Positions 34,365 to 37,841 of a DNA stretch of 64,000 nucleotides are shown here, piece after piece. How positions within the stretch are numbered: position 1 is the first letter of the stretch; each line of letters opens with the position of its first letter. The notes beneath the pieces are model-generated. The model was given only the letters and a program-made list of their open reading frames with translations. It was not told where the DNA came from and made no database searches. The DNA is from Caulobacterales bacterium. GTDB taxonomy: Bacteria > Pseudomonadota > Alphaproteobacteria > Caulobacterales > Caulobacteraceae. The DNA lies in assembly GCA_019510435.1 (NCBI GenBank), contig JAEKKJ010000015.1, positions 88,731 to 152,730 of the forward strand, read 5' to 3'. Position numbers and translations under genes: made by a program.

Positions 34365-36587
<2,223 letters not shown>

Positions 36588-36710
36588 CAGAACTCCCTCG
36601 GCCGGCCCGGATCGGGGGGCCCCTGCTCCCATCCGCGGATGTGGGGACGATCGCGGCTCGCCACAACGCATGGCGCCCAAGCGAAATGGGGCGCCGACGC
36701 GAAATGGGGC

Positions 36711-36735
36711 AACGCGGTCTCCGCGGCCAAGTTCC
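36711..36735 (-). promoter_or_regulatory. Predicted EcfG-type promoter facing egtBD
   Basis: Minus-strand GGAAC-TTGGCCGCGGAGACCG(N16)-CGTT, exact match to the alphaproteobacterial EcfG consensus. Confidence 0.75.
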
Positions 36736-36757
36736 GCAATTCCGCCACCGTTCCCAC

Positions 36758-36782
36758 GGAACGGATGGGCGGGCGCTGCGTT
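36758..36782 (+). promoter_or_regulatory. Predicted EcfG-type promoter facing the sigma factor gene
   Basis: GGAAC-GGATGGGCGGGCGCTG(N16)-CGTT, exact consensus, ~62 nt upstream of the ATG at 36845. Confidence 0.78.
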
Positions 36783-36844
36783 CAACCGGCGCTGGTGGCA
36801 GGCGTGTTCCGGTCGGGCGGCCGGGTTAGTTCCTAGGGGTCTGT

Positions 36845-37384
36845 ATGAGCACCACGACGAGTTGGCGCGATGAGGTCGTGGGCCTGATTCCGGCGCTTCG
36901 CGCCTTCGCGTGGTCGTTGAGCCACAATGGCTCTGACGCCGACGACCTGGTGCAGGACACCCTGATCAAGGCCTGGACCAACCGCGACAAGTTCGAGCCG
37001 GGCACCAACCTGCGCGCGTGGCTGTTCACGATCCTGCGCAACACCTACTACACCAGCGTCCTGCGCCGGCGGCGCGAGGTGCGCGACGAGACCGGCGAAT
37101 ACGCCGACACCCTGAAGACCCCGCCGACCCAGGACTGGAGCGTGGCGATGCACTCGCTGCAGGCGGCGCTGCAGCAGCTGCCGGCCGAGCACCGCGAGGC
37201 GCTGATCCTGGTGGGCGCGGCGGGCCTCTCCTACGAGGAGGCCGCCGAGATCTGCGGCTGCGCCCTGGGCACCATCAAGAGCCGGGTCAACCGCGCGCGC
37301 GCCCGCCTGCTCAAGCTGATGGACGCCGAGCACGCGAACGACGTGATGGCCCTGGAGACGATGACGGCGATGGGGACGGCCTAG
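36845..37384 (+). CDS. ECF sigma factor, EcfG (ECF15)-like
   Basis: VVGLIPALRAFAWSLSHNGSDADDLVQDTLIKAWTNRDKFEPGTNLRAWLFTILRNTYYT...AEHREALILVGAAGLSYEEAAEICGCALGTIKSRVNRAR. Confidence 0.88.
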   Translation: MSTTTSWRDEVVGLIPALRAFAWSLSHNGSDADDLVQDTLIKAWTNRDKFEPGTNLRAWLFTILRNTYYTSVLRRRREVRDETGEYADTLKTPPTQDWSVAMHSLQAALQQLPAEHREALILVGAAGLSYEEAAEICGCALGTIKSRVNRARARLLKLMDAEHANDVMALETMTAMGTA

Positions 37385-37505
37385 GCGGCGCAGGATTGGC
37401 CGCCTCCAGCTGGTCGACCACGCGCAGCAGGTGCTCCGGCGCGCCCCGGTCCTCCAGCGCCTGGAACATCCGTCGCAGCGCCATGTCCGGTTTGCGTTTG
37501 GTCAT
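37311..37505 (-). CDS. NepR-like small anti-sigma factor candidate
   Basis: MTKRKPDMALRRMFQALEDRGAPEHLLRVVDQLEAANPAP...; resembles NepR helices (LxxMYDxVxxExVPDRxxxLLxQL). Convergent with and overlapping the sigma gene by 74 bp. Confidence 0.5.
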   Translation of the reverse strand: MTKRKPDMALRRMFQALEDRGAPEHLLRVVDQLEAANPAPPRPSPSPSSSPGPSRRSRARRPSA

Positions 37506-37619
37506 GGGCCCCGTTCCCCCCGCCGCGCATTCTACTGAAGTCCGCCGACGCCGATACAGCAAAGCCGGCTCTGGGCCGCGGACACAGTGATGCAGCCGGA
37601 TTGGCCCGGATGGAGGGCA

Positions 37620-37841
37620 ATGACTGACATGGCCGACCCCAAGGCGCCCCCTGGCGGGCACGGCGAAGGCGAGTTCGAGCCCTGGGACCGCGCCCGCTAC
37701 GGCTCCCGGGAGGACGAGGACCAGGAGGACTACGGCTCCGGCTGGGACCGCCAGGGCCACGAGTACGGCGCCGGCCAGGACGAAGAGCCCGCCGCCTCCG
37801 ACACCGAGGTCCCGGGCAAGCCCCGCGCGCCGGACGAGTAG
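37620..37841 (+). CDS. Small acidic, disordered hypothetical protein
   Basis: MTDMADPKAPPGGHGEGEFEPWDRARYGSREDEDQEDYGSGWDRQGHEYGAGQDEEPAASDTEVPGKPRAPDE. Confidence 0.55.
   Translation: MTDMADPKAPPGGHGEGEFEPWDRARYGSREDEDQEDYGSGWDRQGHEYGAGQDEEPAASDTEVPGKPRAPDE

Follow-up and report, generated by a model that had tools for sequence, protein, structure and literature searches.

The 64,000-nucleotide stretch of Caulobacterales DNA analyzed here, referred to below as the window, very probably contains a divergent general-stress control region in which EcfG would drive both the ergothioneine biosynthesis gene egtBD and the gene of an additional EcfG-family sigma factor, with feedback by that sigma factor and restraint by a NepR-like protein. 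As judged from the DNA and its relatives, ergothioneine synthesis and stress signaling appear to be switched on together.

Both genes are preceded by a perfect match to the EcfG-type promoter motif GGAAC-N16/17-CGTT. The predicted promoter facing egtBD (36711-36735, minus strand) consists of a -35 box GGAAC at 36735-36731, a spacer of 16 nucleotides, and a -10 box CGTT at 36714-36711; transcription would start near 36703, leaving a leader of about 115 nt before the ATG at 36587. The predicted promoter facing the sigma factor gene (36758-36782, plus strand) has GGAAC at 36758-36762 and, again after 16 nucleotides, CGTT at 36779-36782, with a predicted start near 36790 and a leader of about 55 nt before the ATG at 36845. 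The original prediction had located this GGAAC-N16-CGTT pair at exactly these positions and on these strands and had correctly counted 22 bp between the two -35 boxes. It had also reported near matches only elsewhere in the window, and a window scan indeed returned the pair as the sole perfect matches to GGAAC-N16/17-CGTT.

No more than nine bases of the pattern are fixed, and the genome comprises 5.1 Mb. Against the two perfect matches found in the window, 0.52 were expected by chance, and at least two were reached in 12 of 100 shuffles. A whole-genome motif count, which had been suggested as a check, yielded 40 perfect matches and, with the pattern reversed, 35, i.e. no enrichment. Because the genomic count is about that of the reversed pattern, one perfect match alone is no evidence, and the significance of a single motif was dropped as an argument. 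These counts are what speaks for the explanation that both motifs arose by chance in a genome rich in GC. The clustering of the matches was the informative part of the count. Nine of the 40 lay within 9 kb of contig C35, the core general-stress locus, and the genome contained four divergent pairs whose -35 boxes were less than 150 bp apart, compared with about 0.01 expected. These four include the egtBD/sigma factor pair and the nepR/phyR pair. The island on C35 (G000, C35:465.7-474.5 kb; L047, 3600-12600) carries genes for a phyK-like histidine kinase, ecfG1, nepR, and phyR; a divergent motif pair with just 4 bp between the -35 boxes (C35:471318-471371) has small membrane or glycine-zipper genes nearby. 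Another divergent perfect pair, with 87 bp between the boxes, was seen near the end of contig C45 (G000, C45:294044-294180; L050).

Conservation in related genomes had been named as a further check of the original prediction, and here the motif pair fared strongly. Related loci were fetched with the sigma factor protein as the query, and 45 non-redundant loci remained after removal of near-identical copies; in 38 of them, all from Caulobacteraceae, egtB was divergent from and adjoined the sigma factor gene. The sigma factor-facing motif was perfect in 37 of these 38 divergent loci and the egt-facing motif in 26 (imperfect or absent in 12), with both perfect in 25 and the reversed control at 0/38 for each orientation, although the 38 loci are related by descent and the counts are non-independent. 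When close relatives were aligned, the -35 and -10 boxes stood out as conserved columns, whereas the spacers had diverged, which argues for selection on the boxes. Across the family, the motif was found upstream of 29 of 30 nepR-ecfG1 operons and of all 30 phyR genes, which served as positive controls, and upstream of none of the 11 other ECF sigma factor genes of the window genome. With both motifs in one divergent intergenic region, and with conservation at orthologous positions well beyond that of the controls, we regard a chance origin as very improbable. Reading both sites as EcfG-type general-stress promoters, as first proposed, is supported by this conservation across relatives. The sigma factor locus has its nearest named kin in Phenylobacterium, and the window genome likely belongs to this genus.

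Depending on the locus, the two -35 boxes were 22 to about 60 bp apart; the two promoters thus look independent, and a shared operator read from a fixed -35 to -35 spacing was discarded. Two repeats in the intergenic region were likewise rejected as regulatory sites. The inverted repeat CCGTTCC-cac-GGAACGG (36748-36764), to which the original prediction had drawn attention, is present with the sequence and coordinates given there, and its left arm adds a -35-like box that has no -10 box; it is unique to the window genome, so that support from relatives is absent and a role as a regulator site was not retained. The tandem GCGAAATGGGGC (plus strand, 36681-36710; copies at 36681-36692 and 36699-36710, with an 18-bp period) lies over the predicted egtBD start and leader. 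Its two copies are the only ones in the genome, and it is absent from relatives. It was set aside as an operator and is probably a local duplication.

The gene downstream of the minus strand promoter, egtBD (34365-36587), encodes a fused EgtB and EgtD protein of 740 amino acids. The product matched TIGR03440 with 566.8 bits and TIGR03438 with 393.1 bits, both exceeding the curated cut-offs, as well as PF10017, PF03781, and PF12867. In contrast to the fused gene of the window, the relative G013 has two divergent genes, egtB and egtD (contig C13:18804-21144). Overall, egtB was present in 92 of 120 Caulobacteraceae genomes. In 56 genomes with usable upstream DNA, egtB had no adjacent sigma factor gene; a perfect egtB-facing motif within 400 bp was nevertheless found in 20 of these 56, versus about 0.1 expected. 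In genus g14, from which 13 egtBD genomes were sampled and which gave no match to EcfG1, the egtB-facing motif was found in 0 of 13. The association between the egtB motif and the presence of EcfG1 had a Fisher p of 0.002, computed without phylogenetic correction. In Sphingopyxis granuli, putative egtB and egtD genes were reported to belong to the EcfG general-stress regulon, which that study calls the first finding of this kind (PMC7083833). Taken together, the conserved motifs, the unlinked egtB genes, and the Sphingopyxis precedent support the tie of ergothioneine synthesis to the general stress response that the original prediction had drawn. Strain TFA resembles the window in that egtB/egtD are transcribed under EcfG control and that two EcfG paralogues operate, there in a hierarchy; it differs in that ecfG1 and ecfG2 lie in the nepR2/phyR2 locus and, as far as the available text shows, in that egtBD is not placed beside an EcfG gene (PMC7083833).

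The gene behind the plus strand promoter (36845-37384) encodes a sigma factor of 179 amino acids that matched the Sigma70_r2, Sigma70_r4_2, and PhyR_sigma2 models. It is 50% identical to the primary EcfG of the genome over 157 residues and keeps an EcfG-like region 4. Its best match in the PDB was 5uxx_A, the partner chain of which, 5uxx_B, is a NepR protein. Regions 2 and 4 are thus both present, and its closest kin are EcfG proteins. In a quick tree, which did not include SigU and in which the basal supports were modest and the base of the clade weakly supported, the sigma factor of the window grouped neither with the family's primary EcfG nor with most SigT-like paralogues; its separate clade was closer to EcfG proteins of Azospirillaceae and rhizobia. 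The primary EcfG of the genome is encoded on contig C35 together with nepR and phyR, and a third EcfG-like gene is present on contig C5. The sigma factor gene of the window does not lie beside nepR and phyR, and no strong phyR was found near it in the genome. By domain content and gene neighborhood, the window protein is an EcfG paralogue encoded outside the phyR-nepR locus and not the primary EcfG. A minority of the family's SigT-like EcfG paralogues (L263, L275, and L276) have an adjacent NepR-like gene of their own.

Autoregulation of the sigma factor gene, as the original prediction had it, is a plausible inference. The EcfG on C35 or the EcfG-like protein on C5 might also read the motif, so that autoregulation and control by EcfG1 are inseparable by sequence. 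It is conceivable, if somewhat doubtful in our estimation, that the primary EcfG alone reads both promoters. The window sigma factor would then act purely downstream of it, without autoregulation, and would serve another regulon or a minor one. The precedent for such an arrangement is the secondary factor SigU of Caulobacter crescentus, which SigT transcribes from a SigT motif and which contributes little on its own (PMC3073932, PMC4814048); as in the window, the gene of a secondary EcfG factor stands behind a general-stress promoter and outside the phyR-nepR locus. The unlinked egtB genes point the same way, as they carry the motif in genomes that have no window-type sigma factor. Against this explanation, the window sigma factor keeps its EcfG-like region 4, does not group with the SigT-like paralogues in the quick tree, and is accompanied by a NepR-like gene of its own. 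SigU is described as a mild amplifier without NepR binding (PMC3073932, PMC4814048); the window factor differs from it in its position in the tree, its convergent NepR-like gene, and its linkage to egtBD.

That NepR-like gene, which the original prediction had omitted, is convergent to the sigma factor gene (37311-37505, minus strand; ATG at 37505), and the 3' ends of the two genes overlap by 74 bp. The frame of 64 codons reads MTKRKPDMALRRMFQALEDRGAPEHLLRVVDQLEAANP... and encodes a divergent NepR-family protein of 64 amino acids. With PF18557 the window protein scored 15.3 bits, under the curated cut-off of 25.7, and only one other place in the genome ranked higher for NepR; 6 of 10 tested orthologues at the same place passed the Pfam cut-off with 26.5-32.1 bits. 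A regular-expression search gave no match, whereas iterative profiles detected a NepR-like homologue in the corresponding position of 35 of the 56 loci, the window included. All of these matches were opposite to the sigma factor strand, and two more loci had one slightly further off. Among the 38 non-redundant divergent loci, the gene was present in 25 and undetected in 13, mainly in one Phenylobacterium subclade. The family profile matched the NepR chains 3t0y_B (E value of 4.8e-5), 5uxx_B, and 4qic_B in the PDB, aligned with the canonical NepR profile with an hhalign probability of 94.6, and recovered the canonical NepR encoded upstream of ecfG in rhizobia; the similarity to known NepR proteins is thus evident at the profile level. 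In the core outside the sigma factor overlap, substitutions were concentrated at the third codon position (280, 237, and 456 at positions 1, 2, and 3), and the median dN was 0.34 versus a dS of 0.89; this codon bias supports the frame as a gene. No perfect EcfG motif was found upstream of the NepR-like gene in any locus, and there was one near match. A second candidate, the open reading frame at 37587-37841, was rejected as an anti-sigma factor, as it matched no family. At rhizobial nepR-ecfG/phyR loci, as in the window, the EcfG gene has a NepR-family neighbor, and rhizobial EcfG proteins share 49-63% identity with the window sigma factor; there, however, nepR immediately precedes ecfG in the same orientation, whereas in the window the NepR-like gene converges on the 3' end of the sigma factor gene, which has egtBD as its divergent neighbor.

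Classical NepR binds EcfG, and the NepR-like protein of the window could act in this way on the neighboring sigma factor. We also give some credence, falling short of preference, to the opposite assignment, namely that it is a PhyR antagonist exerting negative feedback. Extra NepR-family proteins of the EcfG system, comparable in this respect to that of the window, are known from Methylobacterium extorquens and Sphingomonas melonis; the M. extorquens NepR paralogue and S. melonis NepR2 bind PhyR rather than EcfG, for which binding was undetected, and dampen the response (PMC6599016, PMC4814048). The Leu and Phe/Tyr positions that these paralogues need appear to match a conserved L and F in the window family. 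Secondary EcfG factors of C. crescentus and Sphingomonas do not bind NepR (PMC4814048, PMC6599016), a finding that, like the PhyR-binding paralogues, counts against the reading that we prefer. The NepR-like gene is, on the other hand, kept in three loci that lack egtBD (L073, L140, and L157) and thus tracks the sigma factor gene, not egtBD, which argues against PhyR as the target; so does the position of PhyR, the single strong copy of which in the window genome is located elsewhere than at the egtBD/sigma factor locus. In two relatives, egtB is flanked by a second phyR (L063, 1-690; L067, 995-2254), and Pfam assigns PhyR sigma-like and receiver domains to its product. With phyR adjoining egtB(D), these two would represent a nearly complete second stress-switch locus.

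On the reading that we prefer, two independent EcfG-type promoters would fire in opposite directions from the divergent control region, one into egtBD and the other into the secondary sigma factor gene. Upon stress, PhyR would be phosphorylated and EcfG freed from NepR, and EcfG-holoenzyme would then transcribe both genes. Both promoters are probably recognized by the secondary sigma factor as well, so that the response would be amplified or prolonged by coherent feed-forward or positive feedback. The NepR-family protein probably restrains this loop, either as an anti-sigma factor to the window sigma factor or as a competitor for PhyR.

Membership of egtB/egtD in a general-stress regulon had already been reported for Sphingopyxis (PMC7083833), and the window locus is a variant of a known system. 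Its conservation and the convergent NepR-like gene make it more interesting, and a search of the open-access literature found no earlier report of an egtBD-sigma factor-NepR-like locus. Little is understood of what the numerous additional EcfG paralogues of alphaproteobacteria do; one EcfG lineage here has a clear linked target, ergothioneine synthesis, and a candidate cognate NepR-family partner, the window copy of which is too divergent for the Pfam cut-off. The locus represents a concrete, testable two-sided circuit and suggests that other apparently orphan EcfG genes merit a search for hidden NepR partners. More tentatively, a further EcfG lineage of Caulobacteraceae might constitute a secondary stress switch complete in itself, equipped with a fast-evolving convergent NepR and, in some of the species, also a PhyR of its own. 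The ancestral linked output of this switch would be ergothioneine synthesis, and a dedicated sigma/anti-sigma factor pair would have been inherited together with a redox-buffer pathway as one module. The results support ergothioneine as a recurrent output of the general stress response in alphaproteobacteria, beyond the sole report, that from Sphingopyxis, found in the literature searched.
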